Shown: positions 17,957 to 51,190 of the stretch, piece after piece
How the letters are laid out: each line of letters starts with the position of its first letter
How positions within the stretch are numbered: the stretch's first letter is position 1
Source: an uncultured Saprospiraceae bacterium
GTDB lineage: Bacteria > Bacteroidota > Bacteroidia > Chitinophagales > Saprospiraceae
Length of the DNA stretch: 64,000 nucleotides
Direction of reading: 5' to 3'
Assembly: GCA_937921595.1 (NCBI GenBank)
Contig: CAKZTD010000091.1
Location: 1-64,000, forward strand
The notes under the pieces: model-generated
What the model was told of the DNA's origin: nothing
Seen by the model: only the letters and a program-made list of their open reading frames with translations
Databases searched by the model: none
Program-made: the position numbers and the translations under genes

Positions 17957-18022
17957 ATGATTTTTATCAAAGCAGCTCTTGATTCATCTCAAAGAATAAA
18001 GCTCCTCATGTTTATACTTTTG
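17957..18022 (+). promoter_or_regulatory. Tandem FNR-type operator and -7 element for P-type ATPase
   Basis: Distal dyad ATGATttttATCAA (17957-17970) and proximal dyad TTGATtcatCTCAA (17979-17992) are 22 bp apart. The -7 element TActTTTG is at 18015-18022, so the proximal centre is 36.5 bp upstream of its last G. This matches class II activator geometry. Confidence 0.8.
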
Positions 18023-18043
18023 AATTAAAATCAGAAAAACCTT

Positions 18044-20716
18044 ATGCCTAATCTTGTAAAAAAACCTTGGCAAATTTCGACGGCAAAAATTATAAGCTTA
18101 TTGCAAGGCGATGAGCTAAAAGGACTTTCTCAAGACGAAGCTAAAAAAAGATTCAAAATATGGGGTGCTAATGTTTTGAACTTGCAAAAAGAGACCTCCT
18201 TAATACGATTATTTCTCCGTCAGTTTATAAGCCCTTTAATTTGGGTCTTACTAGCTGCAGCAATCTTGGCTTTTTTATTCGATGAGTGGCTGGAAGGCTT
18301 TGCAATTTTGGGGGTAATTTTCATCAATGCAATCATAGGATTTTTCATGGAATGGCAAGCAAATCATTCTATGAAAGCCTTACGAAATCTAGCTCAGACC
18401 TCTGCTAATGTTTTTCGAGATAAGCAGTTAAAAAAAATAAAAGCATCCGATTTAGTGCCAGGAGATTTAATTTTTTTAGAGGCAGGAGATGTCGTCCCTG
18501 CAGACTGTAGAATCCTCGAACAAAATAAGGTAGGAATAAAAGAAGCCGCACTGACCGGAGAAAGCATCCCAGTAATGAAACAAGAGCAATCACTACAAGG
18601 AGAAGTTATTCTTGCTGAACAAAACAATCTATTATTCAAAGGCACAACCGTAATGATGGGTAATGCAAAGGCTATAGTTTTTGCAACTGGTCTATATACT
18701 GAACTGGGAAAAATAAGCAAACTTGCTCAAGAAGCTCAAAAAGCAACTACACCGCTCGAAAAAAAATTGAACAAGCTAAGTATGAAATTACTTTGGCTGA
18801 CTTTAATCTTGATGTTTATCATTCTTATTCTGGGAATTATTCAAGGGCGAGACATTTACGTTATGATCAAAACTGCAATTGCCTTGGGAATCGCAACCAT
18901 CCCGGAAGGTTTGCCGATAGTAGCTACCATTGCTTTATCCAGAGGTATGTTACGTCTAGCGAGCCATCAAGTCATTGTAAAAAAACTGAGTGCTGTAGAA
19001 ACACTTGGGGAAACCCAAGTCATCTTTACAGACAAAACAGGTACACTTACGGAGAACCAACTATCTGTAGCGACATTAGGATTCGAATTTGCGACAAGTA
19101 ACACTTTTTTCGAAAAAAACAAACTTCAATTTGAAAACCCTGAGGATCATTATATTCCAAATACATTTGCTTTTGAACAAATAAAAAAAATCGCTTCCTT
19201 ATGTAATAATGCAAGCTTAAATTATAAAAAAAATTCAACAGCGAACATTGGAGATCCTTTAGAAATTGCTTTACTAAAATTTACTCAGGGCAATGGAACC
19301 AGTCTCCGTGATTACAAAAAAGATTATCCACGCTTAAAAGAAATCCCCTTCGATAGCAATACAAAAATGATGGGAACCTTACACAAAAACGGTAAAAGAC
19401 CTGATTTCTTGGTTTGTATAAAAGGCGCAATGGAAGTCGTAATTAAACAAAGCGATTATGTATTAACTAAAGATGGCAGAAAGGATCTCAATAATAAAAA
19501 CCTATGGATAGAAAGAGCTGATCAGTTAGCAGCCAAAGGTTTACGAGTCCTTGGTTTTGCTTATAGCGAAATAAATGAAAAAGAAGATCAGTTTTTCCAC
19601 AACCTCACTTTTGTTGGTTTCATTGGTTTTCTAGACCCTCCAAGGCCAGATATCAAACCCGCTATACAGACTTGTAAAGAAGCAGGCATCAAAGTCATCA
19701 TGGTTACCGGAGACCATCATGAAACTGCTCGCAACATCGCATTCAAAACTGGATTAGTTGATTCAGAAACGGTTCCTGTTTTTCATGGTCAACACCTGAA
19801 ATCTGAAGAGCAACTAACGTCGAAAGAACGCACTGCATTACTCAACACCAATATATTTGCAAGGGTTAGCCCTGCTCAAAAACTAGACCTCGTCAGCATA
19901 TATCAAAACGAACAAATGACCGTTGGGATGACAGGAGATGGAATCAACGATATGCCCGCCTTAAAAAAAGCTGACATCGGTATCGCTATGGGAAAAAGAG
20001 GAACAGAAGCAGCCAAAGAAGTTGCTGATTTAATTCTCGAAAACGATGCCTTTACCTCTATTGTATTAGCCATAAAACTAGGTCGAAGTATATTTCAAAA
20101 TATCCGACACTTTGTAGTCTACCTGCTGTCTTGTAACCTTAGCGAGATTTTGGTGGTCACTATCATTGCCCTTTTCAATTTCGATTCCTACTTACTACCA
20201 CTTCAAATTCTCTTCTTAAACATGATCACCGATGTGTTCCCAGCCTTAGCATTAGGCATGAATAAAACCTCTGATCATGTCATGCACCTACCTCCTAGAA
20301 AACCAAAAACACCAATCATTTCTTCCAAAATGTGGAAGTCAATTGTCCTCTATGCACTAGGACTTACGATAGCAGTATTGGCTGCTACTTTTTATGCGAT
20401 CTACTATCTTGGTGTCGATGAAGTATCTGCCAACAATTATACTTTTTACACGCTAATATTAGCGCAACTATGGCATGTTTTTAATATGCCTGATGCAAGT
20501 CAATCTTTTTTTAAAAATGAGGTGACACATAATTTTCATATCTGGATGTCATTAATCACTTGCATTATCATCACTTTTATTGCTTACAAAATACCAGTTA
20601 CCCAAGAGGTTTTAAACCTAAAATCTATGTCCTGGAAAATGTTTGGAGAGATATTCATTTTTAGTTTATTCCCAGTTCTTTTCATACAATTTTTAAAACG
20701 AAATAGGTTCTCCTAA
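18044..20716 (+). CDS. Cation-transporting P-type ATPase (Ca2+-type, P2 family)
   Basis: An 890-aa P-type pump. It has an N-terminal cation-ATPase domain, the TGES actuator motif (ALTGESIPV), the membrane PEGLP motif (residues near 290), the phosphorylation site DKTGTLTEN (Asp near 330), an N-domain, and the hinge GDGINDMPALKKADIGIAMG near 630. The C-terminal membrane domain has six predicted helices. PEGLP and the C-terminal domain place it in the P2 (Ca2+/Mn2+ or Na+) group; the exact ion is not readable from sequence alone. It is the first gene of the operator-controlled cluster and has its own promoter. In Mycobacterium, a P2-type pump (CtpF) is likewise part of a hypoxia regulon. Confidence 0.9.
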   Translation: MPNLVKKPWQISTAKIISLLQGDELKGLSQDEAKKRFKIWGANVLNLQKETSLIRLFLRQFISPLIWVLLAAAILAFLFDEWLEGFAILGVIFINAIIGFFMEWQANHSMKALRNLAQTSANVFRDKQLKKIKASDLVPGDLIFLEAGDVVPADCRILEQNKVGIKEAALTGESIPVMKQEQSLQGEVILAEQNNLLFKGTTVMMGNAKAIVFATGLYTELGKISKLAQEAQKATTPLEKKLNKLSMKLLWLTLILMFIILILGIIQGRDIYVMIKTAIALGIATIPEGLPIVATIALSRGMLRLASHQVIVKKLSAVETLGETQVIFTDKTGTLTENQLSVATLGFEFATSNTFFEKNKLQFENPEDHYIPNTFAFEQIKKIASLCNNASLNYKKNSTANIGDPLEIALLKFTQGNGTSLRDYKKDYPRLKEIPFDSNTKMMGTLHKNGKRPDFLVCIKGAMEVVIKQSDYVLTKDGRKDLNNKNLWIERADQLAAKGLRVLGFAYSEINEKEDQFFHNLTFVGFIGFLDPPRPDIKPAIQTCKEAGIKVIMVTGDHHETARNIAFKTGLVDSETVPVFHGQHLKSEEQLTSKERTALLNTNIFARVSPAQKLDLVSIYQNEQMTVGMTGDGINDMPALKKADIGIAMGKRGTEAAKEVADLILENDAFTSIVLAIKLGRSIFQNIRHFVVYLLSCNLSEILVVTIIALFNFDSYLLPLQILFLNMITDVFPALALGMNKTSDHVMHLPPRKPKTPIISSKMWKSIVLYALGLTIAVLAATFYAIYYLGVDEVSANNYTFYTLILAQLWHVFNMPDASQSFFKNEVTHNFHIWMSLITCIIITFIAYKIPVTQEVLNLKSMSWKMFGEIFIFSLFPVLFIQFLKRNRFS

Positions 20717-20736
20717 AAAAGAAATGACTTGGTTAA

Positions 20737-20803
20737 TTGAAAAATATCACATCGCCTTGTGATCCCAATCATTGTTTAAATGATTGATAAGCCCCTAATT
20801 TTA
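20737..20803 (+). promoter_or_regulatory. Tandem FNR-type operator and -7 element for dha operon
   Basis: Distal TTGAAaaatATCAC (20737-20750) and proximal GTGATcccaATCAT (20759-20772) are 22 bp apart. A -7 element TAatTTTa lies at 20796-20803, 37.5 bp from the proximal centre. Both dyads are 8/10 matches, so the call rests on spacing. Confidence 0.6.
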
Positions 20804-20878
20804 AACCAATATAGCCTACAATCATTTTGTAAAAAAATAAAAATCATGATTACCAATCCTGACCAAAAAACATCAACA

Positions 20879-21949
20879 ATGAAAAAACTCATCAACAAAG
20901 TAGATGAAGTTGTACTCGACCAATTAAAAGGAATGGCTCTCGCCCATCCTGACTTGATCGTAAACCTTGATCCTAAATTTATTTATCGAGCAGATGCTCC
21001 AGTTGCCAACAAAGTCGCTATCATCTCTGGTGGAGGTAGTGGACACGAACCGATGCATGGAGGTTTTGTTGGACCCGGGATGTTAGATGGAGCTTGCCCT
21101 GGAGAAGTGTTTACCTCACCAACTCCTGATCAGATGTACGAATGTGCAAAAGCAGTAAATAGCGGTGCTGGTGTTTTGTTTTTAGTAAAAAACTATACCG
21201 GTGATGTGATGAATTTTGAAATGGCAGCGGAGTTGCTCCATGCTGATGGAATTGCCGTACAATGTATTTTAATTGATGATGATGTTGCTGTAAAGGATAG
21301 TCTTTATACAGCAGGTCGTCGAGGTGTTGGAACAACGGTATTAATGGAAAAAATTGTTGGTGCAGCAGCAGAATCAGGTTACACTTTAGACCAATGTGCA
21401 GACCTTGCTCGCAAAATAAATACCTATGGCCGATCCATGGGAATGGCCTTGACTTCATGTACAGTTCCTGCAGCCGGAAAACCGACCTTTGAGCTTGGCG
21501 ATCAAGAAATTGAAATCGGTATTGGTATCCACGGAGAACCGGGAATGAAAAGAGTTCCTTTTCTTTCTGCCGATGAGATCACTATTGTCCTTGCCAACGA
21601 AATCCTTGAGGATGAAGGTTATACCAGAACGGTAAGAGAATGGAATCGAAGCACTGGTGCATGGGAAGAAAAAGTGCTTACGGATGCTCCTTTCAACAAA
21701 ACCGAGGAAGTGATTGTCATGGTCAACAGTATGGGTGGCACTCCTCTATCTGAGCTTTACTCCATCTACAGAAAACTTGATGAGATTTGTAAATTGAAAG
21801 GAGTAAAAATAGTTCGAAATCTAATCGGTTCTTACATCACTTCTTTGGAAATGCAAGGATGCTCCATTACTATCTTAAAAACGGATGAAGAGATTTTAAA
21901 ATTTTGGGATAGTCCTGTGAATACACCAGCCCTCAGATGGGGAGTATAG
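20879..21949 (+). CDS. dhaK: Dihydroxyacetone kinase subunit DhaK
   Basis: DhaK binds dihydroxyacetone covalently through a His and receives phosphate from DhaL-bound ADP/ATP. Starting at the ATG at 20879 ([16 protein letters not shown]), the protein is 356 aa, the same length as E. coli DhaK, and the substrate-binding His falls at residue 218 in GIGIHGEPG, exactly as in E. coli. The [12 protein letters not shown] loop and [17 protein letters not shown] are also intact. The frame is open 33 codons further upstream, with another ATG at 20846. It is first in a dhaK-dhaL-dhaM-facilitator run. No DhaR or DhaQ regulator is present; the tandem dyads upstream are the likely control. Confidence 0.95.
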
Positions 21950-21972
21950 TTTAATCATTTCAAAAAACAAAC

Positions 21973-22626
21973 ATGCCTTCAGCAATAGCAATGAATGTCA
22001 TTTCTCAAAAAAACGTTATCGATTGGTTGCGCATTACGGCTCACTTGATGCACGAAAACAAAACCTATCTAACGCAGTTAGACTCCCCAATCGGAGATGC
22101 CGATCACGGAATAAATATGGATCGTGGTTTTAAAAAAGTATCTGAAAAACTAGAAGATTTTTCTAATCAGGATATTGGTACCATTTTAAAAAATACTGGT
22201 ATGGCTTTGATCTCTAGTGTCGGTGGTGCATCAGGTCCTTTGTATGGTAGTTTTTATCTAAAAGCAGGAATGTCGCTGGCCTCAAAAATGGAACTGAGCC
22301 TTGAAGATCTTTACACATTGTTTAAAAACGGATTGGATGGTTTAAAAATTAGAGGTCGAGCTTCTCTTGGAGAAAAAACGATTGTCGATGCACTTGAACC
22401 TGCTGTCGAATCTCTTAAAAAATCCGTAGCTGATAAGACTTCAATCGATGAGGCTATAAAAAAAGCGGTCCGAGCTGCAGAGCTTGGTATGTTATCAACA
22501 ACAGATATGCTTGCCAAAAAAGGCCGAGCCAGTTACTTAGGAGAACGAAGTATTGGTCATCAAGATCCTGGCGCCACTTCTACTCTTTTTATTTTTAAAG
22601 CATTAGCCGATTCCGTCATCCAATAA
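21973..22626 (+). CDS. dhaL: Dihydroxyacetone kinase ADP-binding subunit DhaL
   Basis: A 217-aa helical-barrel subunit that carries the bound nucleotide and phosphorylates dihydroxyacetone held by DhaK. The metal/nucleotide-binding signature DSPIGDADHGINMDRGF is intact, as are the glycine-rich GGASGPLYGSFYL and the late loop LGERSIGHQDPGATST. The PTS-type DhaL keeps ADP bound and is recharged by DhaM instead of exchanging ATP. A Met 10 residues in (MNVISQ) could be the actual start. Gaps of 23 and 10 nt to the neighbours indicate one operon. Confidence 0.93.
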   Translation: MPSAIAMNVISQKNVIDWLRITAHLMHENKTYLTQLDSPIGDADHGINMDRGFKKVSEKLEDFSNQDIGTILKNTGMALISSVGGASGPLYGSFYLKAGMSLASKMELSLEDLYTLFKNGLDGLKIRGRASLGEKTIVDALEPAVESLKKSVADKTSIDEAIKKAVRAAELGMLSTTDMLAKKGRASYLGERSIGHQDPGATSTLFIFKALADSVIQ

Positions 22627-22636
22627 ATACCTCGCA

Positions 22637-25066
22637 ATGGTCAACATCGTCCTTGTCTCTCACAGCAAAATATTAACCGAAGGTGTTCGGGAGCTGGCAT
22701 TACAAATGACTCAAGACAAGGTCATCATTAAGTGTGCCGGAGGATTAGATGATCCAAATAATCCTATCGGAACAGATCCTTTCAAAATAATAAAAGCCAT
22801 CAAAGAAGCTTATTCTGATGATGGGATTTTGGTGCTGATGGATATTGGTAGTGCGATCATGAGTACGGAAATTGCTATTGAACAATTACAAAAAAAGATA
22901 CAAGACAAAGTACTGCTTAGTGAAGCTCCACTAGTCGAAGGTGCTATCGCTGCTGCGGCTCAGGCGATGACCGGTGCTGACTTAGAAACGGTCGCAAAAG
23001 AAGCACAAAATGCCTTGCTTGCTAAAGCTACTTTACTTCAGCCCGAGAGCATTGAAACATCAAACGACGACATTGACCTTTCAAGAGATGGCATTGAATT
23101 AAGCATTATTGTTCCGAATAAACTGGGCTTGCATGCAAGACCTGCCGCAAAGCTGGTGGACATCGTTAACCGTTATGATGCTTTTGTTTTTATTCGAAAA
23201 GAAAATGGCTTTTTTGTTTCTGCAAAAAGCATCAGCCAGGTCAGTACTTTAGGTGCAAAAAAAGGAGAAAAGCTTATTTTTAAAATTAGTGGTTTAGAAT
23301 CTGAGCTAATTAAAAAGGCTTTAATAGATTTCACTGCTCAGAATTTTCAAGATCCTTTAAAGGATGTAGAACCAATTGGAGTTTTACTAAAAAACAAAGA
23401 TACTTATACCAAAAGCTTCATTTTAGGAATTCCTGCTTCTGAAGGGATTGCTATCGAAAAAACTTACTGGGTCAATCAAAATATTCCAAAAGTTATCAAG
23501 CAAACAATTAATGACTCTAGCCGTGAAATTACTACTTTAGAAAAAGCGATTTCAGATACTCGAGATGAATTGATCACGCTGCAATCAAAAATAAGAATGG
23601 AGGTCACGGCATCTGAATCACAAATTTTCAACTTTCATATTTTACTTTTAAAAGACAGTGATTTCATCAACAAGGTCACTACTCAGATTCAGAATAAAAG
23701 GGAGAATGCAGCTTATGCCTGGATAAAAAACATTCAGTTTTTAGAAAAAAAATATCTAAAAATGGATTCTGAATATTTTCAGGCTCGAGCAGCAGATATT
23801 ACAGCCGTAGGCAACAAAGTACTCCTCAAATTATTAGGAAAAACAGAATCAATCATTGAACTCAAAGAGCCCGGAATTCTAATCGCAGAAGATTTAGGGC
23901 CTGCAGAAACTGCTCAACTTGATACTAAATTTGTCAAAGGCATTATCACCAAAAATGGTGGAGCAACTTCTCATTCTGCGATACTTGCCAGATCTCTTGG
24001 TATTCCAGCAATCGTAGGTCTAGGCGACCAGATTGATCAGATACCTTCCGGAGAAATCCTTGCTATGAATGGGGAATCAGGAGAAGTTTGGTTGGCCAAA
24101 AAAAATCCAGGAAAAATCGCTCAACTTCAAAAACAAAAAGAAAAAGCAGTTCTCACTCAACAAAAAATGCGAGCCATTGCTAAAGTCCCTGCCATCACTA
24201 AAAATGGAAAACAATACCCAATTCTTGCCAATATTAGTAGTCCAAAAGAAGCTCGTATAGCTTTCCAAAATGGAGCAGATGGTATCGGCTTATACCGAAC
24301 AGAATTTCTTTTTATGAATCGAAAAACACCTCCAACGGAGGAAGAACAATATCAAATTTATAAATCAGTTTGCGAAAACATTCAGGGGCTTGCCGTAACT
24401 ATTCGGACTTTAGATGTTGGTGGTGATAAACCAATTCCATACCTCGGAATTGAAAAAGAAAAGAACCCTTTTCTCGGCTTAAGAGGAATCCGATATTGCT
24501 TGTATAATACTGATTTATTCAAAACACAACTTCGGGCAATCTGTAGAATATCTGCCGATTTTCCTATTCAGATTATGTTTCCAATGGTAGCAGTAGAAGA
24601 AGAAGTACAAGCAGCAAAATCATTACTCAAAGAAGTACAAAAAGATTTAAAAACTCAGGGTATTCCTTTTTCAAAAAAGATGAAAGTAGGTATTATGCTC
24701 GAAGTACCTTCCACGATTTTCTGTATACCTGCATTAGCTGCTGAAGTAGATTTTTTCAGTATCGGTACCAATGACCTAACACAGTATCTTCTTGCGATGG
24801 ATCGTGGCAATCCAAGTGTTGCAAAATACCGCAGTCCACTTCACCCAGCAGTGATGCAGGCCATTCAGGAGGTAATCACTCATTCAAAAAATGAAAAAAT
24901 TGAAATCAGTATGTGTGGTGAATTGGCAGGAAACCCTCAAGTCACTCAAACATTGGTCAATATGGGATTAGATAAGTTCAGTATGAGTAGTCCATCCATT
25001 CCAAAAATAAAAGAAATCATTAGAAATATAGCCTACACCAAAGATAAAAAAACGATGATCGTATAG
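22637..25066 (+). CDS. dhaM: DhaM: EIIA-HPr-Enzyme I fusion phosphotransferase
   Basis: An 809-aa three-domain PTS protein that passes phosphate from PEP to DhaL-ADP. Domain 1 (1-~135) is mannose-type EIIA with phospho-His 9 in VLVSHSKIL. Domain 2 (~150-235) is HPr with His 166 in GLHARPAAKLV. Domain 3 (~255-800) is a complete Enzyme I, with phospho-His 446 in GGATSHSAILARSLGIPAIVG, TNDLTQYLLAMDRG and the catalytic Cys in MCGELAG. E. coli DhaM has only a truncated Enzyme I, so this longer form can probably draw phosphate directly from PEP without a separate PTS. I saw no other PTS gene in the window. Confidence 0.93.
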   Translation: MVNIVLVSHSKILTEGVRELALQMTQDKVIIKCAGGLDDPNNPIGTDPFKIIKAIKEAYSDDGILVLMDIGSAIMSTEIAIEQLQKKIQDKVLLSEAPLVEGAIAAAAQAMTGADLETVAKEAQNALLAKATLLQPESIETSNDDIDLSRDGIELSIIVPNKLGLHARPAAKLVDIVNRYDAFVFIRKENGFFVSAKSISQVSTLGAKKGEKLIFKISGLESELIKKALIDFTAQNFQDPLKDVEPIGVLLKNKDTYTKSFILGIPASEGIAIEKTYWVNQNIPKVIKQTINDSSREITTLEKAISDTRDELITLQSKIRMEVTASESQIFNFHILLLKDSDFINKVTTQIQNKRENAAYAWIKNIQFLEKKYLKMDSEYFQARAADITAVGNKVLLKLLGKTESIIELKEPGILIAEDLGPAETAQLDTKFVKGIITKNGGATSHSAILARSLGIPAIVGLGDQIDQIPSGEILAMNGESGEVWLAKKNPGKIAQLQKQKEKAVLTQQKMRAIAKVPAITKNGKQYPILANISSPKEARIAFQNGADGIGLYRTEFLFMNRKTPPTEEEQYQIYKSVCENIQGLAVTIRTLDVGGDKPIPYLGIEKEKNPFLGLRGIRYCLYNTDLFKTQLRAICRISADFPIQIMFPMVAVEEEVQAAKSLLKEVQKDLKTQGIPFSKKMKVGIMLEVPSTIFCIPALAAEVDFFSIGTNDLTQYLLAMDRGNPSVAKYRSPLHPAVMQAIQEVITHSKNEKIEISMCGELAGNPQVTQTLVNMGLDKFSMSSPSIPKIKEIIRNIAYTKDKKTMIV

Positions 25067-25140
25067 CACGTGTCCCAATAAAAATAGTTCAAAAAATTCT
25101 TTTAACCATCGAAACCCCTCGATACTAAAACCTAAAAACT

Positions 25141-25860
25141 ATGTCAGTTTTCATTGCAGAATTAATCGGAACAGCTTTACTGGTTTTATTGGGAAATGGT
25201 GTAGTCGCAAATGTTGTTCTTAGCAAATCCAAAGCAAAAGATTCAGGATGGATCGTCATTGCATTAGGTTGGGCGATTGCCGTTTTTATTCCAGTATTTA
25301 TTGTCGCTCCGGCCAGTGGTGCACATATCAATCCTGCCGTCACCATAGGTTTAGCTACTGCCGGAAAAGTAGCTTGGTCTGTTGTACCAACTTATCTAAT
25401 TGCTCAATTATTAGGAGCGATGATTGGAGGCCTTTTAGTCTGGTTACACTATCGTCCACATTTTGAAGCAACCGATAATTCAGGATTACAACTAGCTTCA
25501 TTTAGTACCAGCCCAGCGATCAAGGATACGATTTCTAATCTCTTATCTGAAATCATAGGCACTTTTGTATTGGTCTATGGTGTCTTTTATATCTCCGGAG
25601 CTAGCGTTGGTGATTCTCCTGCATCTCTCGGTGCACTGGATGCTCTACCTGTTGCCTTAGTTGTATTAGGAATTGGTCTTTCCCTAGGAGGCACAACCGG
25701 ATATGCGATCAACCCTGCTAGAGATTTAGGTCCTCGAATCATGCATGCAATTCTTCCAATGAAAGGTAAGGGAAACAGTAATTGGGGGTACGCATGGATT
25801 CCTGTAGTCGGACCAATCATCGGTGGTGTCTTAGCAGCTTTACTTTTTATGACTTTCTAA
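25141..25860 (+). CDS. MIP family glycerol facilitator (aquaglyceroporin)
   Basis: A 239-aa channel with six membrane helices and two NPA half-helices: SGAHINPAVTIGLA near 60-70 and GYAINPARDLGPRI near 190-200. An Asp after the second NPAR (NPARD) is the classical mark of glycerol facilitators over strict aquaporins. It follows dhaM by 74 nt with no terminator, so it is likely co-transcribed. It would let glycerol or dihydroxyacetone diffuse in for DhaKLM. No glycerol dehydrogenase is adjacent, so the C3 substrate may be dihydroxyacetone itself or come from a dehydrogenase elsewhere. Confidence 0.9.
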   Translation: MSVFIAELIGTALLVLLGNGVVANVVLSKSKAKDSGWIVIALGWAIAVFIPVFIVAPASGAHINPAVTIGLATAGKVAWSVVPTYLIAQLLGAMIGGLLVWLHYRPHFEATDNSGLQLASFSTSPAIKDTISNLLSEIIGTFVLVYGVFYISGASVGDSPASLGALDALPVALVVLGIGLSLGGTTGYAINPARDLGPRIMHAILPMKGKGNSNWGYAWIPVVGPIIGGVLAALLFMTF

Positions 25861-28051: not shown

Positions 28052-28147
28052 CAAAGAAAAGGGTTTCTAAAAAAAAAGTAATTGATAGAAGTCAATAAGG
28101 CTATTGAATATCATCATTTCTACCAAGCTCATCTCTCCCGATCTTTG
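28052..28147. promoter_or_regulatory. Shared tandem FNR-type operator between divergent promoters
   Basis: Dyads TTGATagaaGTCAA (28082-28095) and TTGAAtatcATCAT (28104-28117) are 22 bp apart. Rightward, the second is 36.5 bp from the last G of GAtcTTTG (28140-28147). Leftward, the first is 36.5 bp from the last G of TTtcTTTG (minus strand, 28059-28052). One pair thus fits both promoters with mirror-image geometry. Confidence 0.8.
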
Positions 28148-30420: not shown

Positions 30421-30516
30421 CAAAGAAAAACGAATTTCCACAAAACAATACTGAGAATCATCAATAAAGGAAGTGACTTTTGTCAAAATCTTTAAAACCT
30501 ATTTCCTCTACTTCGA
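30421..30516. promoter_or_regulatory. Shared tandem FNR-type operator (49-aa ORF / flavoprotein gene)
   Basis: Dyads CTGAGaatcATCAA (30451-30464) and GTGACttttGTCAA (30473-30486) are 22 bp apart. Leftward, the first is 36.5 bp from the end of TTtcTTTG (30428-30421). Rightward, the second is 36.5 bp from the end of a weak TActTCGA (30509-30516). The dyads are imperfect; the doubled geometry is the main evidence. Confidence 0.65.
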
Positions 30517-30527
30517 ATAATAAAACC

Positions 30528-31133: not shown

Positions 31134-31199
31134 TTGATTTAAATCAAGGCTCCTCTTGAAATTCAGCACCTCAGCAAAGTTGTAGTATTCTTAATTTTA
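31134..31199 (+). promoter_or_regulatory. Tandem FNR-type operator and -7 element for 129-aa gene
   Basis: Perfect distal dyad TTGATttaaATCAA (31134-31147) and weaker proximal TTGAAattcAGCAC (31156-31169) are 22 bp apart. The -7 element TAatTTTa (31192-31199) ends 36.5 bp from the proximal centre. The predicted leader is under 10 nt. Confidence 0.75.
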
Positions 31200-32356: not shown

Positions 32357-32422
32357 TTGACAATTATCAAATGCGACTATGTCATTAATCAGTGCATTAA
32401 CATGCGTTTCTCTCTACCTTTA
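32357..32422 (+). promoter_or_regulatory. Tandem FNR-type operator and -7 element for leader RNA / flavodoxin gene
   Basis: Distal TTGACaattATCAA (32357-32370) and degenerate proximal ATGTCattaATCAG (32379-32392) are 22 bp apart. The -7 element TAccTTTa (32415-32422) ends 36.5 bp from the proximal centre. Transcription should start near 32428, just before the hairpin leader. Confidence 0.75.
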
Positions 32423-33826: not shown

Positions 33827-34198
33827 ATGAAAAAGATACTTATCATTGAAGACAATGACGATATCAGAGAGAACCTAGAAGAGATATTCAGCCTTTCTAA
33901 TTATAATGTTATCACTGCCGAAAACGGGTCTATTGGTATTAAGAAAGCGTTGAGTGAATCTCCAAATATTATCTTGTGTGATATCGCAATGCCTGTCAAA
34001 AATGGCTATGAAGTTTTAGAATCTTTAAAAAATCACAATACGGCTCATCAGATTCCTTTTGTTTTCCTTACGGCCTCTGCTCAGGAAAAAGACATTGCAA
34101 TGGGTAAGGATTCAAAAGCAGATTACTATTTGACCAAACCGTTTGACACTTCTGACTTACTCAACATTATTAAAAAACTATTGAAAGAAACTGCTTAA
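33827..34198 (+). CDS. Single-domain response regulator
   Basis: A 123-aa stand-alone receiver: acidic pair in IIEDNDDIRENL, phospho-acceptor Asp in NIILCDIAMPVKNGYEV (residue near 52), Thr in VFLTASAQEKD and Lys in YYLTKPFDTSDLL. It has no output domain, so it acts through protein contact or as a phospho-relay intermediate. It overlaps the kinase gene by 1 nt (TAATG). No FNR-type dyads precede it, unlike its neighbours; its control is separate. Confidence 0.92.
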   Translation: MKKILIIEDNDDIRENLEEIFSLSNYNVITAENGSIGIKKALSESPNIILCDIAMPVKNGYEVLESLKNHNTAHQIPFVFLTASAQEKDIAMGKDSKADYYLTKPFDTSDLLNIIKKLLKETA

Positions 34199-35724
34199 TG
34201 CCAAAGAAAACTATTCTGCAGGCACTGTTTGAAGAAGCTACCATCGGCATCCTGGTTGCTAATCAAGAAGGTGTGATTATAGAACACAATCCATATATAG
34301 AAAAGCTTTTTGGTTATAACGACTTAGAGCTAAAGGATAAAAATATAGAAGAATTATTACCCGAATCTTTTCGAACTCGACATGTTCAACACAGAACGAG
34401 CTTCCACAAAAAACCAGCTCCCCGAGCGATGGGAGCTAATTTGGAATTGTTTGGTCAAAAAAAAGACGGTACTCAATTTCCTATTGAAATAAGTCTCAGT
34501 CATATGACTTTCCATGGAGAACCTTATGCAATCGCTTACATCAATGATGTTACTAATTTAGTAGAAGCAAAAAAGATCAGTGATGATATTTCAAAAATTG
34601 TAGAAGAATCTCTAAATGAAATTTATATTTTCCACGCAGAAACATTGAAGTTCATTCAGGTCAATAAAGGAGCAAGACAAAACATGGGTTACAGCCTAGA
34701 GGAACTACAACAGATAACACCTGTTGATATAAAACCTGATTTTGATCTAGATCAGTTTACTCAAACAATTGCTCCTCTTTTAAATGGAGAAGAAGATAAA
34801 CTTCTTTTTGAAACCGTCCATCAGCGGAAAGATCAAACCACTTATCCGGTAGAAGTTCATTTACAATATTCCCGACTGGGCAATCAACCTGTTTTTGTTG
34901 CCATTATTATAAATATCAATCAACAGAAAAACTACGAAAAACACCTCATTGACTACTCTGAAGAATTAGAGGAAAAAGTAAAAGAACGAACAAAGCAACT
35001 AGAGGAAAACAGAGCGCAAATTGAACTCGCTTTTTATAAAGAAAAAGAGTTAAGCGAATTAAAATCTCGGTTCGTTTCCATGGCTTCTCATGAGTTTCGA
35101 ACACCATTAAGCTCTATTCTATCTTCTGCTGATCTAATTAGTAGATATGAAAAAACAGAACAACAGGACAAACGGATGAAGCATGTCCAACGCATTAAAT
35201 CTTCCGTTGATAATCTTACATCAATTCTAAACGATCTCCTTTCTTTGGAAAAACTGGAATCCGGGAAAATCACTTCTAGCATAGCTGAAGTAGATTTTCA
35301 AGATTTCTCATCCGTCTTGCTAGATGAAGTAAATTTACTAACTACAGACGAACAACAAATCACCTATAAACATTCCGGAAAAGGCATTGTGAAAATCGAT
35401 CAACATCTTGTCAAAAACATCTTGCTGAATTTACTGTCAAACGCAGTAAAGTATTCTCCTAACGGAACCGATGTAGAGCTAAGTTCTGAATGTAATGATG
35501 ATATTCTAAAAATAGAGGTTAAAGATTATGGAATGGGAATTCCGCATGAAGATCAAGAGCATATGTTCTCTCGTTTTTTCCGAGCAACCAACGCTACCTC
35601 CATCCAAGGCACTGGCCTCGGACTTACCATCGTCAAACGATACCTTGACTTAATGAATGGAAGCATAAGTTTTGAAAGCAAAGAAAATGAAGGGACTACT
35701 TTTAGTGTGGAGATTCCTCAGTGA
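34198..35724 (+). CDS. PAS-PAS sensor histidine kinase
   Basis: A 508-aa soluble kinase with no membrane segment. PAS 1 (about 8-125; LFEEATIGILVANQEGVIIEHNPYIEKLFGY), PAS 2 (about 140-245; IFHAETLKFIQVNKGARQNMGYSLEEL), a coiled-coil linker (EELEEKVKERTKQLEENRAQI), HisKA with SMASHEFRTPLSSIL and a HATPase (NLLSNAVKYSPNG, DYGMGIPHEDQEHMFSRFFR, GTGLGLTIV). PAS domains in soluble kinases often sense redox state, oxygen or small ligands; no haem- or flavin-binding residues can be assigned by eye. The adjacent receiver is the probable partner. Its position within the stress cluster suggests a second layer of signalling. Confidence 0.92.
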   Translation: MPKKTILQALFEEATIGILVANQEGVIIEHNPYIEKLFGYNDLELKDKNIEELLPESFRTRHVQHRTSFHKKPAPRAMGANLELFGQKKDGTQFPIEISLSHMTFHGEPYAIAYINDVTNLVEAKKISDDISKIVEESLNEIYIFHAETLKFIQVNKGARQNMGYSLEELQQITPVDIKPDFDLDQFTQTIAPLLNGEEDKLLFETVHQRKDQTTYPVEVHLQYSRLGNQPVFVAIIININQQKNYEKHLIDYSEELEEKVKERTKQLEENRAQIELAFYKEKELSELKSRFVSMASHEFRTPLSSILSSADLISRYEKTEQQDKRMKHVQRIKSSVDNLTSILNDLLSLEKLESGKITSSIAEVDFQDFSSVLLDEVNLLTTDEQQITYKHSGKGIVKIDQHLVKNILLNLLSNAVKYSPNGTDVELSSECNDDILKIEVKDYGMGIPHEDQEHMFSRFFRATNATSIQGTGLGLTIVKRYLDLMNGSISFESKENEGTTFSVEIPQ

Positions 35725-36549: not shown

Positions 36550-36641
36550 AATGGTCAATTTTAAATGAGGTAATTAAAACCTGTCCAAATTTTGTTTTTT
36601 GATGGCGAAAGAGCCAATTTCGACAGGTTCTATTTTCTCTT

Positions 36642-36707
36642 CAAATATAGAAACAAACCATTCTCACTCATATGTTTTAGGTCAATTGGCAATTTGAATT
36701 TTATCAA
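36642..36707 (-). promoter_or_regulatory. Tandem FNR-type operator and -7 element for barrel protein gene
   Basis: Written on the plus strand: proximal ATGTTttagGTCAA (36672-36685) and distal TTGAAttttATCAA (36694-36707), 22 bp apart. The leftward -7 element is an exact TAtaTTTG (36649-36642), 36.5 bp from the proximal centre. Confidence 0.75.
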
Positions 36708-39765: not shown

Positions 39766-39831
39766 GTTTTCTGCTGACGATGGTCAGCTTCAAAATTGAT
39801 TAAAATCAATACTCTACTTAACAAAAATTAA
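39766..39831 (-). promoter_or_regulatory. Tandem FNR-type operator for cardiolipin synthase
   Basis: Perfect dyad TTGATtaaaATCAA (39796-39809), with TTAACaaaaATTAA (39818-39831) 22 bp away. The leftward -7 at the expected place (39773-39766, TCagTTTT) is a poor match. These dyads might also serve the rightward repeat unit. Confidence 0.65.
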
Positions 39832-40397
39832 CAATACAACTGAAAGAGTCATGTCGCTCTATACAGGCAGAAACCATTCGCTTAAAACATTTTTAGGAAC
39901 ACCTTATCCCAACTGTTCCCAAAACATTATATTGATCATTGGAGTCGTGATATTAGCCCTAGAAATACTAATTATATTTAATATAATATCGTGATTGAAA
40001 TACTTGAAGAGAACACTCAAATTGTGTTTAAATCCCGTCAAAAACAGAAACGAGAATCCCCTCGAAAGAAGATTCCCGTTTCATTTTACAACATCCGAAA
40101 ATACTGTAAAATCTCAAATCAAGAATAACAAACCTTCATCATCTTAAGAATTGTAAACAACCAAAAGAATAAGAATCTGACTTCACCAACTTTTACTTTT
40201 TTCCGACCCTGATTCCGAAGAACTAGCATCTTCCAAAAGACACATCAATGATGCCTGACAGCAATCCTGTCTGATTTTTTCTTGATTTAATTTTTTCAAA
40301 GGAATTGATATTTAATTTACTGAAGGAAAACACTTTGGAGAGGTCAGATTTACACTAAAAAACTATTAAAAAAAATGTCAATCCCTTTGATTTTTTA

Positions 40398-40423
40398 GGC
40401 TAACTTTTTAGCTATTTTTTTTT
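40398..40423 (+). terminator. Terminator-like hairpin at end of repeat copy 1
   Basis: GGCTA / TAGCT-type 5-bp stem (one G-U) followed by TATTTTTTTTT. The equivalent hairpin in copy 2 has A-T in place of G-C at one stem position, so pairing is kept. Confidence 0.6.
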
Positions 40424-40476
40424 AGTTCTAGCTTTATATATTGTTTCAAAGATAAGCAATATCAAAGCTCTTTACA

Positions 40477-40512
40477 TTGACCACCATCAATTGGTCTATT
40501 AATCCTTATCAA
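40477..40512 (+). promoter_or_regulatory. Tandem FNR-type operator before repeat copy 2
   Basis: TTGACcaccATCAA (40477-40490) and TTAATccttATCAA (40499-40512), 22 bp apart, both 9/10 matches. A weak -7 (AAaaCTTG, 40536-40543) lies 37.5 bp from the proximal centre. Confidence 0.7.
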
Positions 40513-40548: not shown

Positions 40549-41104
40549 GAAAATATTCCTAGGGAACACTTTCTCCCAAGTGTTATCGAACGTCTCATAT
40601 ACAATCATTGAAATCGTAATACTAGCCTTAAGAGTAAGAATTGTCTTTAATGTGCTTCGCCTTGATTGAAATACTTGAAGAGAATATTCAAGCAGTATTT
40701 AAACCCCTTCAAAAACAGAAACGAGAATCCCCTTGAAAGAAGATTCCCGTTTCATTTTACAACATCCGAAAATACTGTAAAATCTCAAATCAAGAATAAC
40801 AAACCTTCATCATCATCTTAAGAGTTGTGAACAACCAAAAGAATAAGAATTTGACTTCACCAACATTTACTTTTTTCCGATCCTGATTCCGAAGAACTAA
40901 TATCTTCCAAAAGACACATTAACTACTGCCTAGCCGAAAACCGGCCTGATTTATTTTTCATGATTCGATATTTTTCAAAGGAATTGACTTTTTCTATATT
41001 GAAGAGAGAACGCTTGAGAGAGATTGGGAGTACGTCTGAGGAACGCTTGAAAATCTCAACTCCTTTGATTTCTTTAGACTAACTTTTTAGTCTATTTTTT
41101 TTTT
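40549..41104 (+). ncRNA. Candidate non-coding transcript from repeat copy 2
   Basis: Defined only by signals: the operator pair at 40477-40512 predicts a start near 40549, and a hairpin with ten T ends it at 41104. The interior has the conserved core shared with copy 1, including the 12-bp hairpin and CTTGAA/TTCAAG arms near 40674-40692, and no convincing ORF. Transcription is inferred. Confidence 0.45.
41076..41104 (+). terminator. Terminator at end of repeat copy 2
   Basis: 6-bp perfect stem AGACTA / TAGTCT, 6-nt loop, then A and ten T. Confidence 0.7.
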
Positions 41105-41141
41105 GATAATTCAAAGATAAAACGATTCAACACTCTATCCA

Positions 41142-41177
41142 TTGATCGCCATCATTTCGTCTATTGATCCTTATCAA
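41142..41177 (+). promoter_or_regulatory. Tandem FNR-type operator at end of repeat copy 2
   Basis: TTGATcgccATCAT (41142-41155) and perfect TTGATccttATCAA (41164-41177), 22 bp apart; positional equivalent of the pair at 40477-40512. No good -7 element lies at the expected distance. Confidence 0.75.
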
Positions 41178-41196
41178 TTGCCTTCTTTTTTTTGAC

Positions 41197-41232
41197 TTGC
41201 AAAAACTCAATGCAGGAATTGATACACATCAT
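41197..41232 (+). promoter_or_regulatory. Second tandem operator, directly before the hydrolase gene
   Basis: TTGCAaaaaCTCAA (41197-41210) and TTGATacacATCAT (41219-41232), 22 bp apart. A weak -7 (CAtaTTTa, 41256-41263) ends 37.5 bp from the proximal centre, just before the ATG at 41276. Confidence 0.6.
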
Positions 41233-41275
41233 TGAATACAAAGTAGTATTTTTTGCATATTTAAATCAAAAAGAC

Positions 41276-42277: not shown

Positions 42278-43147
42278 TCAACTTATATTTCTCCTCTGTT
42301 TTAGAAAAATAAACCAGTAAACCATTCCAACCATTAAAGCACCTCCAATAATATTCCCTATCGTCACTGGCAATAAATTGTCTGTTAAAAAACTACTCCA
42401 GGTCAATTGAATATAGTCTGAAGGAAGGCGGTCGACAGAAGACCAAAAAGCATCATTCGCAAATGTTTTTATCATTAAACCTTTAGGAACAAAATACATA
42501 TTGGCAATACTGTGCTCGAAACCAGCAGCAACAAATGCAGTGATTGGAAATATGATCGCCAATATTTTATCAGTCGTTGATCGAGCACTGAAACACAACC
42601 AAACCGCTAAGCAAACTAAGATATTACAGAGCGCCCCTAAAGCAATGGCTTGTGTAAAACCCAGACTACATTTTGCAGCAGCAATATTCAAAGCATTTAA
42701 TCCAACAGCTCCATTTGAAAACATATATTGCTGAGCAATGATCATCAGAACCGCTAAAGAAATAGCACCGACTAGGTTTCCTAGATAAACGATTCCCCAG
42801 TTCCGGAGCAGTTGACTAGTCTTAATTTTTCCACTAGCCCAAGCCATACTGATCAAATTATTTCCAGTAAACAATTCTGCTCCCGCAACAATCACCAAGA
42901 TCAAACCTAAACTAAAAGCTAATCCACCAACGAGCTTTGTCATTCCCCAATACATCGTTGAACCAGTCGTAACGGTAGTCGCGAAGATAGCTCCTAAACC
43001 AATAAAAGCTCCTGCGAGAATAGCAAGCATAAAAGTTTTAGTAAAACCCATTTTTGCTTTTGACACACCGACCGATTCTGCCTTTTCGGCCATAGCCTCA
43101 GGAAGAAGAGCGTCGACCTTTATTTCGTTTTTTGAAAAGTCTGACAT
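42278..43147 (-). CDS. Formate/nitrite transporter family protein
   Basis: A 289-aa channel with six membrane helices: MLAILAGAFIGLGAIFATTV, GGLAFSLGLILVIVAGAELFTGN, SLAVLMIIAQQYM, GFTQAIALGALCNILVCLAVWLCF, IFPITAFVAAGFEHSIANMYFVP and LPVTIGNIIGGALMVGMVYW. The motifs FTGN and GFEHSIANMYF (with the channel His) are FNT hallmarks. Family members move formate, nitrite or hydrosulfide; the substrate is not readable here. Formate export or nitrite uptake both suit low-oxygen metabolism. It lies 4 nt after the 2TM gene in an operator-controlled operon. Confidence 0.92.
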   Translation of the reverse strand: MSDFSKNEIKVDALLPEAMAEKAESVGVSKAKMGFTKTFMLAILAGAFIGLGAIFATTVTTGSTMYWGMTKLVGGLAFSLGLILVIVAGAELFTGNNLISMAWASGKIKTSQLLRNWGIVYLGNLVGAISLAVLMIIAQQYMFSNGAVGLNALNIAAAKCSLGFTQAIALGALCNILVCLAVWLCFSARSTTDKILAIIFPITAFVAAGFEHSIANMYFVPKGLMIKTFANDAFWSSVDRLPSDYIQLTWSSFLTDNLLPVTIGNIIGGALMVGMVYWFIFLKQRRNIS

Positions 43148-43420: not shown

Positions 43421-43486
43421 CAAAAATCAATATTAATTTCAAACTAAGTAATGAGAATAATCAATTCAATAAGTGATTAATGACAG
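43421..43486 (-). promoter_or_regulatory. FNR-type operator and -7 element for 2TM/FNT operon
   Basis: Proximal dyad ATGAGaataATCAA (43451-43464) is 36.5 bp from the last G of leftward GAttTTTG (43428-43421). A degenerate distal partner GTGATtaatGACAG (43473-43486) lies 22 bp further. Confidence 0.65.
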
Positions 43487-43502: not shown

Positions 43503-43568
43503 TTGATCAGTATCAAAAGCCAAACTGATTCAGATCATTTCGAATACCTTTTCTTCCTCTTAAATTTG
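43503..43568 (+). promoter_or_regulatory. Tandem FNR-type operator and -7 element for Hsp20
   Basis: Perfect distal dyad TTGATcagtATCAA (43503-43516), proximal CTGATtcagATCAT (43525-43538), 22 bp apart, and an exact -7 element TAaaTTTG (43561-43568), 36.5 bp from the proximal centre. This is the clearest example of the arrangement. Confidence 0.88.
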
Positions 43569-43610: not shown

Positions 43611-44054
43611 ATGTCTCTTATCAAAAGAAAAAAAAGAAATGGTATGTTTCCAGTAATTAATTCTGTCTTCGATAATTTTTTTGAAGATGATAATGCTTTA
43701 TTAAAAAAATGGCGCAACGGCACTGCCTTCCCTTCAGTGAATGTCAAAGACGAAGATAAAAGTTACTGCTTGGAAGTTGCTGCACCAGGATTGAGCAAGA
43801 AAGACTTTGAAATAGAAGTCGATAAAGGTGTATTAACGATTAGCGCTAAAACTAAAAAAGAAGATAAAGAAGAAACTGAAAATTATACTCGTCAGGAATT
43901 CAGTTACAGTTCTTTTTCCAGGTCTTTTTGGTTACCAGAAGCAATAAAAGAATCTGAAATCAAGGCTAGCTATAAGGATGGTATTCTTACTGTCAATGTT
44001 CCAAAAGCAAAAATAGTTAAGAAAAAGACAGCTAAAAAAATTGCGATCAAGTAA
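43611..44054 (+). CDS. Hsp20/alpha-crystallin family small heat shock protein
   Basis: A 147-aa chaperone with the alpha-crystallin domain (about 38-135): FPSVNVKDEDKSYCLEVAAPGLSKKDFEIEVDKGVLTISAK, then YSSFSRSFWLPEAIKESEIKASYKDGILTVNVPKAK. The C-terminus ends IAIK, with the I-x-I anchor. It holds unfolded proteins in an ATP-independent way. Hsp20 of this type (Acr/HspX) is the hallmark of hypoxia regulons in mycobacteria, and here it has the best-formed tandem operator in the window. A terminator follows at 44123. Confidence 0.95.
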   Translation: MSLIKRKKRNGMFPVINSVFDNFFEDDNALLKKWRNGTAFPSVNVKDEDKSYCLEVAAPGLSKKDFEIEVDKGVLTISAKTKKEDKEETENYTRQEFSYSSFSRSFWLPEAIKESEIKASYKDGILTVNVPKAKIVKKKTAKKIAIK

Positions 44055-44156: not shown

Positions 44157-44249
44157 TTGAAAATATTCAAAAAGAATCGACGAAACATAAACAACTAGCA
44201 ATCAGTACTCTGCAAACAATATCAGATCATATTCTTGAAAAAGTTCATT

Positions 44250-48853: not shown

Positions 48854-48883
48854 AATTTTAGAGCAGGTCGAAAAACAATTGAA

Positions 48884-49324: not shown

Positions 49325-49340
49325 TTTATGTTTTTTTATT

Positions 49341-49406
49341 CAAAATATTAGAATCAAGACTTATGGGAAATGATTCTCATTAAACTCTTTTTTTTATTTT
49401 CATCAT
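49341..49406 (-). promoter_or_regulatory. Possible FNR-type operator for the eRF1-like gene
   Basis: ATGATtctcATTAA (49370-49383) and TTTATtttcATCAT (49393-49406) are 23 bp apart, not 22; the leftward -7 candidate ATatTTTG (49348-49341) is 35.5 bp from the proximal centre. Each element is imperfect. Confidence 0.4.
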
Positions 49407-49467
49407 AAAGGTTATTTAAAGAAGAAAGATATCAATTCATTCGGTTTCAATTGCAATGAAACAATTT

Positions 49468-51000
49468 TCACTCTAAACCAAATGCATAATAGTGAACTTC
49501 ATTAAAATCTTCCAGATAAAAACCTTCGAGTAGTACTCCTCCTTTAGTGTTTTCCAATATATCGACAAAGTGATTAACTGATTTTATAACTTCATTATTT
49601 AATTTTGAAATAACAAACCCTTTTTTAATCTCAGTATACTTTTTTACTAATCCAGGAAAAATATTGGTCACTTTCACTCCTCCTTCAATTTTTACTTTCA
49701 CTCGTTCTTTTTCAGAAAGGTTTTCGACAGTTATTCCCAAAGAATTTAAAACTTTTTCTAGCTTTTCTTTTGAAACCACTCCTTCAAAACTGCTCCCTTT
49801 TAAAATTACCTCTATAGTCCTTTCTTCTCCTTTTCTAATCAAACCGATAGTGACTGTATCTCCAGGATGATATCGACCAATGACCTCTTGGAGTCTAGGC
49901 GAGGATTCTATCTTTTCTTTATCTACTTTTATAATAACATCTTTCTTTCGAACACCAAACTCTTCAGCAGCACTATGCTCAACAATACTATCCACGTATA
50001 CCCCTTGAGTGGATTTTAAATCCAGTTCTTCCATTAAATCACTATTAAGATTTCGCATGTAAACGCCTAAATACGCTCTTTGAACTTCACCATAATTCAA
50101 TAAATCATCAATGACCTTTTTTGCGATATTTACGGGTATTGCAAAAGAGTATCCAGCATACGCCCCAGTCGGTGAAGCAATTGCAGTATTGATCCCAATA
50201 AGTTCACCTTTGAGATTAACCAAAGCTCCTCCACTATTCCCAGGGTTCACGGCTGCATCTGTTTGAATAAATGATTCGATCGAAGCATGATCTCGAATGA
50301 TATTTATATTTCGGGCTTTAGCACTTACGATTCCAGCGGTAACGGTAGTAGATAAATTAAAAGGATTCCCAACCGCCAACACCCATTCTCCAACTTCCAA
50401 AGAATCAGAATCTCCAAGAAGAATGAACTTTAAATTTTCTGCTTCAAATTTCAACAAAGCTAAATCAGTTGCCGAATCAGTCCCTACTACCTTTCCTTTG
50501 AAAGATTGATTGTCATTTAATACAATCTCAATTTCATCCGCATTTTTTATTACATGATTATTAGTAAGTACATAGCCATCATCTGTAATGATAATTCCGG
50601 ATCCACTTCCCATTCTTGATCGAGGATTTGGATTTTGATTTGGGTTATCGAAAAAATGTTCAAAATCATCTCCGAAAAAATCTTTAAAAAAATCTGGAAT
50701 TTCCAACCTATCTACAGAAATACTTTTTCCTTTATAAGTAGAAATGATATGCACAACCCCTGGCATAACTTTTTTTGCAGGAACACGAAAATCTAATGCG
50801 TTCAAACTTGTGCTGTTAAAGTTCTCTTTCAGGTTTGATGAAACACTTACTTGTTGAATATCTTCAATAGAGACTTCAGGTTTCTCAAGAACAACTGTTT
50901 CCTTTTTCTGAGCTTTACAACTTTGAATGAAAAACGAAATGATAAATAGCTTAACAACAACTATTGCCTCTCTCTTATTTTGTTGTATAAAATTGAACAT
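49468..51000 (-). CDS. HtrA/DegP family serine protease, lipoprotein form
   Basis: A 510-aa periplasmic protease-chaperone. The N-terminus ends in FIQSC, a probable lipobox, so it may be membrane-anchored. The trypsin-like domain has the full triad: His in VLTNNHVIKNADE (near 145), Asp in DSATDLALLKFE (near 175) and Ser in VNPGNSGGALVNL (near 255). A PDZ domain follows (about 310-400, GVYVDSIVEHSAAEEFGVRKKDVIIKV), and the C-terminal 100 residues look like a second, divergent PDZ (VTNIFPGLVKKYTEIKKGFVISKLN). It degrades misfolded envelope proteins. It is divergent from clpB; both have operator pairs in the intervening DNA. Confidence 0.93.
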   Translation of the reverse strand: MFNFIQQNKREAIVVVKLFIISFFIQSCKAQKKETVVLEKPEVSIEDIQQVSVSSNLKENFNSTSLNALDFRVPAKKVMPGVVHIISTYKGKSISVDRLEIPDFFKDFFGDDFEHFFDNPNQNPNPRSRMGSGSGIIITDDGYVLTNNHVIKNADEIEIVLNDNQSFKGKVVGTDSATDLALLKFEAENLKFILLGDSDSLEVGEWVLAVGNPFNLSTTVTAGIVSAKARNINIIRDHASIESFIQTDAAVNPGNSGGALVNLKGELIGINTAIASPTGAYAGYSFAIPVNIAKKVIDDLLNYGEVQRAYLGVYMRNLNSDLMEELDLKSTQGVYVDSIVEHSAAEEFGVRKKDVIIKVDKEKIESSPRLQEVIGRYHPGDTVTIGLIRKGEERTIEVILKGSSFEGVVSKEKLEKVLNSLGITVENLSEKERVKVKIEGGVKVTNIFPGLVKKYTEIKKGFVISKLNNEVIKSVNHFVDILENTKGGVLLEGFYLEDFNEVHYYAFGLE

Positions 51001-51020
51001 GCCTGTTAAAGTATTTTATT

Positions 51021-51087
51021 CAAAAATAGTAAAACAAACACTTCACTTTCTATGACAATAATCAACCTGAATTTTGATTTTCATCAT
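51021..51087 (-). promoter_or_regulatory. Tandem FNR-type operator and -7 element for HtrA
   Basis: Plus-strand sequences: proximal ATGACaataATCAA (51052-51065) and distal TTGATtttcATCAT (51074-51087), 22 bp apart. The leftward -7 is an exact TAttTTTG (51028-51021), 37.5 bp from the proximal centre. Confidence 0.72.
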
Positions 51088-51124
51088 TAAGATCTAGGGT
51101 CTCAATATTTTTACAATATGCATT

Positions 51125-51190
51125 TTGATCAAAATCAATGATCCTCTTGAGGCCAATCAAACCTAACAACATACTTTTCATATACCTTGA
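51125..51190 (+). promoter_or_regulatory. Tandem FNR-type operator for ClpB
   Basis: Perfect TTGATcaaaATCAA (51125-51138) and TTGAGgccaATCAA (51147-51160), 22 bp apart. A partial -7 TAccTTGA (51183-51190) ends 36.5 bp from the proximal centre. The clpB start is about 150 nt further, and a second weak promoter (TAtaCTTG, 51285-51292) lies between. Confidence 0.72.

Follow-up and report, generated by a model that had tools for sequence, protein, structure and literature searches.

What controls the genes that lie between 17.9 and 51.3 kb of contig CAKZTD010000091.1 from an uncultured Saprospiraceae bacterium? In this block the window (positions 1 to 64,000 of the contig, the whole stretch of DNA that was analysed) carries promoters with two 14 bp FNR-type dyads of the form TTGATnnnnATCAA, the centres of which lie 22 bp apart. 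We put the probability at roughly 0.7 that the pairs mark class II promoters of a microaerobic and stress regulon that extends across the genome and would be driven through the paired dyads by a FixL-type kinase and a protein in which a receiver domain is fused to a Crp/Fnr-type output (REC-CRP).

The pairs were counted by scoring TTGATnnnnATCAA letter by letter at a given start-to-start distance, with 46 other spacings (in the range 14–60 bp) as a control. At a threshold of at least 17 of the 20 consensus letters there are ten pairs in the window at a spacing of 22 bp and 0–2 at each other spacing; 30 first-order Markov sequences gave a mean of 0.03 pairs and a maximum of one at 22 bp. With the core TGAY-N4-RTCA (sum of at least 15/16), 12 pairs are found at 22 bp, compared with a mean of 0.13 and a maximum of two at the other spacings. 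All 12 lie within 17936–51126, and the core scan found none outside 17.9–51.2 kb, either in the rest of the window or in the remaining 38.7 kb of the contig. Across the genome of the bacterium a strict search (at most three mismatches in 20 to the paired pattern) found 27 places, ten of them inside the window, and the reversed pattern found none at the same threshold. Chance and base composition are rejected as an explanation by these Markov, reversed-pattern and other-spacing counts. The paired dyads had been reported in a first-pass annotation, which saw no pairs outside the 17.9–51.3 kb block and named a genome-wide scan as a check; the observation is confirmed as to the sites and their limits, and the perfect dyads are exactly the five that it listed (31134, 39796, 41164, 43503 and 51125).

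The annotated distance from the proximal centre to the last base of the −7 element required some correction. The general value of 36.5 bp stands, as does 37.5 bp at 20.74 and 51.05 kb. The value of 37.5 bp given for 40.48 and 41.14 kb does not, because these promoters had been read in the wrong orientation; on the minus strand each has a perfect TATCTTTG at 36.5 bp. At 17.9 kb three dyads stand in register (starting at 17935, 17957 and 17979), and weaker pairs that had not been named, at 30.45, 32.36, 36.67 and 43.45 kb, follow the same grammar to varying degrees. For the pair at 39.8 kb, the fixed distance yields no good −7.

The same grammar recurs in 80 loci that were fetched by similarity to the REC-CRP protein alone, without use of the promoter pattern. 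Nearly all are labelled Bacteroidota (one is labelled Deltaproteobacteria and one just uncultured bacterium), and the pairs in them are not independent because the loci are related to one another. The core search gave 135 pairs at a spacing of 22 bp, spread over 56 of the 80 loci, compared with a mean of 1.87 and a maximum of eight at other spacings; 134 of the 135 lie outside open reading frames (ORFs). The stricter TTGAT letters (at least 16/20) gave 39 pairs at 22 bp (next best spacing, 14; Markov mean, 3.0). Of 270 oriented rows, 89 have a TTTG that ends 36.5 bp downstream of the proximal centre (the next offset has 13) and 51 a TAnnTTTG (the next has 3); the rows, like the 40 that follow, include directions that cannot all be promoters. 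In 20 relatives' loci, three of which were picked by the dyad-pair pattern and none by the −7, TTTG ends at this distance in 18 of 40 oriented rows, with each other distance from 8 to 75 bp found at most once, and TAnnTTTG does so in 13. Judged from the −7, the proximal centre therefore falls at about −42, and the annotated combination of FNR-type sites, class II geometry and dyads two helical turns apart is borne out.

The second dyad is the rule, with exceptions: the 80 loci contain 36 perfect dyads with TAnnTTTG at 36.5 bp, and for 25 of these a partner lies exactly 22 bp upstream. The TGAY/RTCA core is shared by the two dyads of a pair; their spacers differ, with A at 196 of 356 distal and 105 of 356 proximal positions. 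Since this A-richness of the distal spacer runs across the family, the two sites do not appear to be equivalent. A filament of many dimers was considered and is rejected, as just two places around the 135 pairs have a third dyad in register (mean at other offsets, 0.47); the triples in the window and in one relative, G002, look like exceptions.

The genes next to these promoters point to respiration under low oxygen and to stress. Of 178 genes adjoining pairs in the 80 loci, the best matches were CcoNO for 12, CcoI/FixI for ten, universal stress proteins for six, CBS proteins for five and Hsp20 for four; 54 had no match in the reference set used. The genes preceded by pairs in G002 include the best matches to the cation ATPase, CcoI, CcoNO, the kinase and universal stress genes; in G001 pairs precede the best matches to the kinase and CcoI. 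In the genome of the bacterium itself, a weight-matrix scan of stretches L030–L043 (all except C150 picked at pattern hits) found pairs beside a fused COX1–FixO cbb3 gene, which FixP- and FixG-type genes follow, and beside a CcoI/FixI-type P-ATPase, an HlyD-type gene, universal stress proteins, a CBS protein, an AMP-binding (acyl-CoA-synthetase-like) gene and, with a weak pair, FtsH; the accompanying Pfam scan took in 70 proteins of the window and these stretches, and so covered part of the flanking genes. Further clusters of pairs lie on contigs C189, C271, C93 and C130. The first-pass annotation had described the 33 kb block as a regulon with a stress and low-oxygen theme; the gene content upholds the theme, and the block itself now appears as one cluster among several of a wider microaerobic and stress regulon, presumably under oxygen control. 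As a separate observation, the paired-dyad site at L035:5385 lies upstream of a gene (L035:4066-5334) whose product has a Pycsar effector transmembrane domain (PF18967); the regulon would thereby take in a defence-like protein.

Which protein, then, might read these sites? The genome has 14 genes with a cNMP domain. Two of them encode fusions of receiver, cNMP domain and helix–turn–helix (HTH), and each directly follows a PAS kinase: REC-CRP A (L032:6950-8005, contig C271; recognition helix ESISR) and REC-CRP B (L033:2239-3291, contig C150; recognition helix ESVIR), which are 61% identical. Matches of REC-CRP A over the cut-off to PF00027 (4.1e-21) and PF13545 (9.3e-14) place it in the Crp/Fnr superfamily, and its receiver (PF00072, 2.9e-27) makes it a response regulator. 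The output is a Crp-type HTH, unlike that of FixJ, which joins a receiver to a LuxR-type HTH. Residues D9, D52, K104, E315 and R319 are invariant in all 35 aligned members of the family; Fe–S cysteines are absent from these 35, and the sole column with Cys in at least five rows (position 51) lies inside the receiver. A Glu-x-x-Ser-Arg recognition helix had been predicted for the regulator, and one of the two copies in this genome has it; however, 31 of the 35 aligned members have Glu-x-x-Ile-Arg and three have SR, and the Ser-Arg rule therefore seems unneeded. In a comparison with known structures, none of the best 60 of 326 sequence matches had a best stretch covering both halves of REC-CRP, and the best 50 of 1951 matches by fold were Crp/Fnr proteins of 199–234 residues. 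The structural model of REC-CRP (predicted local distance difference test score, pLDDT, of 82.1; predicted TM-score, pTM, of 0.40) is unreliable in its domain packing.

The PAS domain of kinase A, which adjoins REC-CRP A, has FixL as its best Protein Data Bank matches (E value of 2.3e-31). It keeps the His column (in HDDY) and the Arg column (in GIGR), which we take to be the proximal His and distal Arg of FixL, and is accompanied by HisKA and HATPase domains. Kinase A is thus classed as FixL-type, a predicted heme-based O2 sensor with a kinase that O2 would inhibit. A pair also stands before the kinase A/REC-CRP A operon, with TTTCTTTG ending exactly 36.5 bp downstream. In 63 of the 80 loci REC-CRP comes directly after a kinase gene, in 23 a pair stands directly upstream of the kinase/REC-CRP genes, and a simple expression for the FixL-like kinase motif found 16, so that FixL-type sensing may not extend to the whole family. 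The best candidate for the regulator is the REC-CRP beside the FixL-type PAS kinase on another contig. The earlier expectation of one Crp/Fnr-family regulator encoded outside the window holds as to family and location; the regulator is probably a receiver–Crp/Fnr fusion and not an ordinary FNR.

The promoter and the fusion also occur together across genomes. In 296 genomes of the phylum, at least three composite sites are found in 29 of the 43 genomes with a full-length REC-CRP and in seven of the 253 without, and within the class in 29 of 43 compared with five of 30 others, in both cases with kinship ignored; 98 of the genomes have non-zero counts. The numbers of composite-promoter matches, taking both strands together, include 48 in G156 and 19 in G327, and no REC-CRP was found in the latter.

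A number of observations weigh against REC-CRP as the reader. Two further FixL columns, presumably residues 206 and 214, are changed in kinase A (N and K), and the 656 bp upstream of kinase B yielded no pair. There are 0–2 composite sites in 14 of the 43 REC-CRP genomes, mostly from one family (f24, in which 12 of 15 have 0–1), and the strict TTGAT pair pattern reaches at least eight places in just five of 60 relatives, of which 39 have a REC-CRP match. Seven candidates per genome were scored for REC-CRP, so that some may be missed. The genome also encodes a plain Crp relative, L028, with an FNR-like EAVSR helix. Finally, six of the seven promoter-bearing genomes without REC-CRP carry an FNR relative with an N-terminal CxxC and, in all six, the helix GTATE[ST]-x-IR (the seventh has no CxxC FNR relative at that match threshold), and the promoter is therefore probably not read by REC-CRP alone.

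These last genomes bring in the alternative that a receiver-less, ordinary FNR relative is the main reader of the paired promoters and that REC-CRP is linked to them in a secondary role. In five stretches from three such genomes, chosen by their FNR genes or the flanks of these, a spacing of 22 bp occurs five times and the other 46 spacings three times together; the larger count of 12 at 22 bp versus 0.11 includes stretches picked at pattern hits. The −7 is weaker here, with five TTTG at 36.5 bp among 12 pairs read both ways (ten stretches, half of them pattern-chosen). In the tree REC-CRP forms one clade (100/100), which groups with the CxxC FNRs in 45 rows at a support of 89/90, below the firm mark. 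For the bacterium studied here, however, an Fe–S FNR as the regulator is rejected, as an N-terminal CxxC is found in none of the 12 other cNMP-domain proteins; L028, for all its FNR-like helix, branches far off on a long and unsure branch; and the pair in front of the kinase/REC-CRP operon, here and in the 23 relatives' loci, speaks for the fusion. We consider this alternative unlikely as an account of the window. The promoter grammar appears to be older than the receiver–FNR fusion.

Less probable again is that the distal dyad separately serves a second factor, for instance REC-CRP B, with A at the proximal dyad, which would give two-signal control. The unequal spacers and the presence of two REC-CRPs of 61% identity in this genome would suit such an arrangement. 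Against it, the TGAY/RTCA core is common to both dyads, and 39 of the 43 REC-CRP genomes have a single match among the seven candidates scored, many of them still being rich in sites. That the pairs are a product of chance or a mobile repeat can be dismissed, since although the promoter copies at 40.48 and 41.14 kb are part of a tandem duplication, the DNA between and around the pairs differs, the spacing and the −7 recur in loci of many families, and the control counts are far lower.

For the preferred reading, that of a FixL-type kinase acting with REC-CRP, the mechanism that we infer, from oxygen signal and phosphotransfer to binding, cooperativity and activation, would be as follows. The FixL-type heme-PAS kinase on C271 would sense low oxygen, autophosphorylate and phosphorylate the receiver of the adjoining REC-CRP, which can be seen as a merger of a FixJ-type receiver and an FNR-type output in one polypeptide. 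Phosphorylated REC-CRP dimers would then occupy the two dyads on the same face of the DNA. The proximal dimer, near −42, would lie against RNA polymerase, and the distal dimer would either bind cooperatively or contact the polymerase further upstream. By analogy with DevR, a role of the receiver in cooperative filling is possible; FNR relatives that have no receiver seem to make use of such pairs as well, and the contact may therefore also run via the Crp part or the polymerase. The kinase/REC-CRP operon would control itself through the same type of promoter, and the second system, B, on C150, probably shares the sites.

A broader statement stands, in our judgement, at even odds: that the grammar is widespread in Bacteroidota, with an activating unit of exactly two FNR-type dimers 22 bp apart in non-equivalent roles, that its readers are Fe–S FNRs in certain lineages and elsewhere a once-evolved receiver–FNR fusion that collapses FixL–FixJ–FixK to one step, and that in the genome of this bacterium it also drives a duplicated structured noncoding RNA. 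If this is true, the grammar provides a sequence rule by which low-oxygen and stress regulons could be predicted from DNA in many Bacteroidota, uncultured ones included. It would also be a natural case in which oxygen sensing has moved between the cluster of a regulator and a kinase while the DNA side is unchanged, and the exact two-dimer unit would make activation on the unusual Bacteroidota promoter testable.

The individual promoters of the window were oriented by their −7 elements, and the gene families are from Pfam. On the plus strand, the triple dyad (17935..17992, in the 22 bp register; −7 TACTTTTG at 36.5 bp) lies upstream of a P-type cation ATPase (18044-20716), the best-match counterpart of which in G002 (70% identity) also has a pair (L159:10049). 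The pair at 20737..20772 (TAATTTTA at 37.5 bp) is upstream of Dak1, Dak2, PTS and aquaporin genes (20780-25860). That at 28082..28117 (GATCTTTG at 36.5 bp) precedes 28162-29901 and has a second −7, TTTCTTTG at 36.5 bp, on the minus strand, so that it possibly serves a minus-strand gene too. The pair at 31134..31169, the distal dyad of which is perfect (TAATTTTA at 36.5 bp), precedes 31212-31601, and a weaker pair at 32357..32392 (TACCTTTA at 36.5 bp) precedes 32584-33129 and a CBS protein (33148-33582). The pair at 43503..43538 (TAAATTTG at 36.5 bp) is upstream of Hsp20 (43611-44054), and that at 51125..51160, with an imperfect −7 (TACCTTGA at 36.5 bp), is upstream of a Clp ATPase (51347-53968). 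A weaker pair at 30451..30486, near a pyridoxamine-oxidase-like gene (30528-30980; ORF as 30480-30980), was left without a strand; its better −7 is on the minus strand. Minus-strand promoters comprise a weaker pair at 36672..36707 (TATATTTG at 36.5 bp) upstream of an outer-membrane β-barrel gene (35830-36558), dyads in register at 39774..39831 upstream of a phospholipase-D family gene (38298-39740), a weaker pair at 43451..43486 (GATTTTTG at 36.5 bp) upstream of a formate/nitrite transporter (42278-43147) and a pair at 51052..51087 (TATTTTTG at 37.5 bp) upstream of a trypsin–PDZ (DegP-like) protease (49468-51000). Several pairs precede genes without a named family.

The two remaining minus-strand pairs, at 40477..40512 and 41142..41177 (each with TATCTTTG at 36.5 bp), point left into DNA without sizeable ORFs; the second may also serve the plus-strand gene 41192-41920. 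Each lies upstream of a structured RNA-like element of about 400 nt, copy 2 (40040..40441, minus strand) and copy 1 (40711..41106, minus strand) respectively, with ends judged by eye, and the promoters belong to the tandem duplication along with the element. Each copy thus sits behind a paired-dyad promoter and has a terminator-like stem at its 3′ end. The fold of copy 1 (40708-41108) has a minimum free energy of −108.2 kcal/mol (z of −4.70), and none of 100 shuffles was as low. The copies are 84% identical over a 395-base match, with changes on both sides at five of 114 predicted base pairs, which is little evidence from two sequences. At the gathering threshold, Rfam gave no match in the window to the element, its sole match being a tRNA gene (55378-55449, minus strand). 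In a search of 60 genomes, full-length copies were found solely in this one, with a single 35-base match besides. The element is a candidate low-oxygen small RNA.

The window also encodes signalling proteins of its own. A stand-alone receiver domain (33827..34198, plus strand) is 48% identical to the receiver of REC-CRP A and is followed by a PAS–PAS histidine kinase (34198..35724, plus strand) without the GIGR motif. The dimerization helix of this kinase nearly matches those of the FixL-type kinases A and B, and the two proteins (33827-35724) may therefore feed the REC-CRP pathway. Their best-match counterparts lie about 14–16 kb from one of the three REC-CRPs of G002. FixT is a single-domain receiver that acts on FixL, and by analogy the stand-alone receiver could be a relay or a brake.

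How does the proposed system compare with those already known? A literature search, with subscription journals mostly outside its scope, found no description of REC-CRP or of the 22 bp paired grammar in Bacteroidota. At class II promoters of Escherichia coli FNR an TTGATnnnnATCAA site lies near −41.5 and one site is normally enough; here, in contrast, promoters as a rule have a second dyad at exactly 22 bp, and unlike E. coli FNR the aligned REC-CRPs are without Fe–S cysteines. The DosR/DevR system of Mycobacterium tuberculosis is similar in being a two-component hypoxia system with closely packed adjacent sites. Its kinases are heme kinases, and its promoters differ from those of Bacteroidota in sigma factor and −7 elements. 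DevR is a NarL-family protein, whereas the candidate regulators here have a Crp-type output. In DevR promoters the proximal site overlaps the −35 region, and the receiver domain must be present for the neighbouring site to be filled cooperatively (PMC3029386). The FixL–FixJ–FixK cascade of rhizobia and Burkholderia is alike in its heme-PAS kinase, receiver and Crp/Fnr output, and in having cbb3 oxidase and FixI as likely targets; the Burkholderia lxa low-oxygen locus encodes a heat shock protein along with six universal stress proteins (PMC6127331). FixJ and FixK are two proteins in the FixL cascade, whereas REC-CRP joins the receiver to the Crp/Fnr output in one polypeptide. As predicted from its sequences, the system is FixL–FixJ–FixK-like, with a promoter layout that resembles that of DevR and a DNA-binding family that is different.

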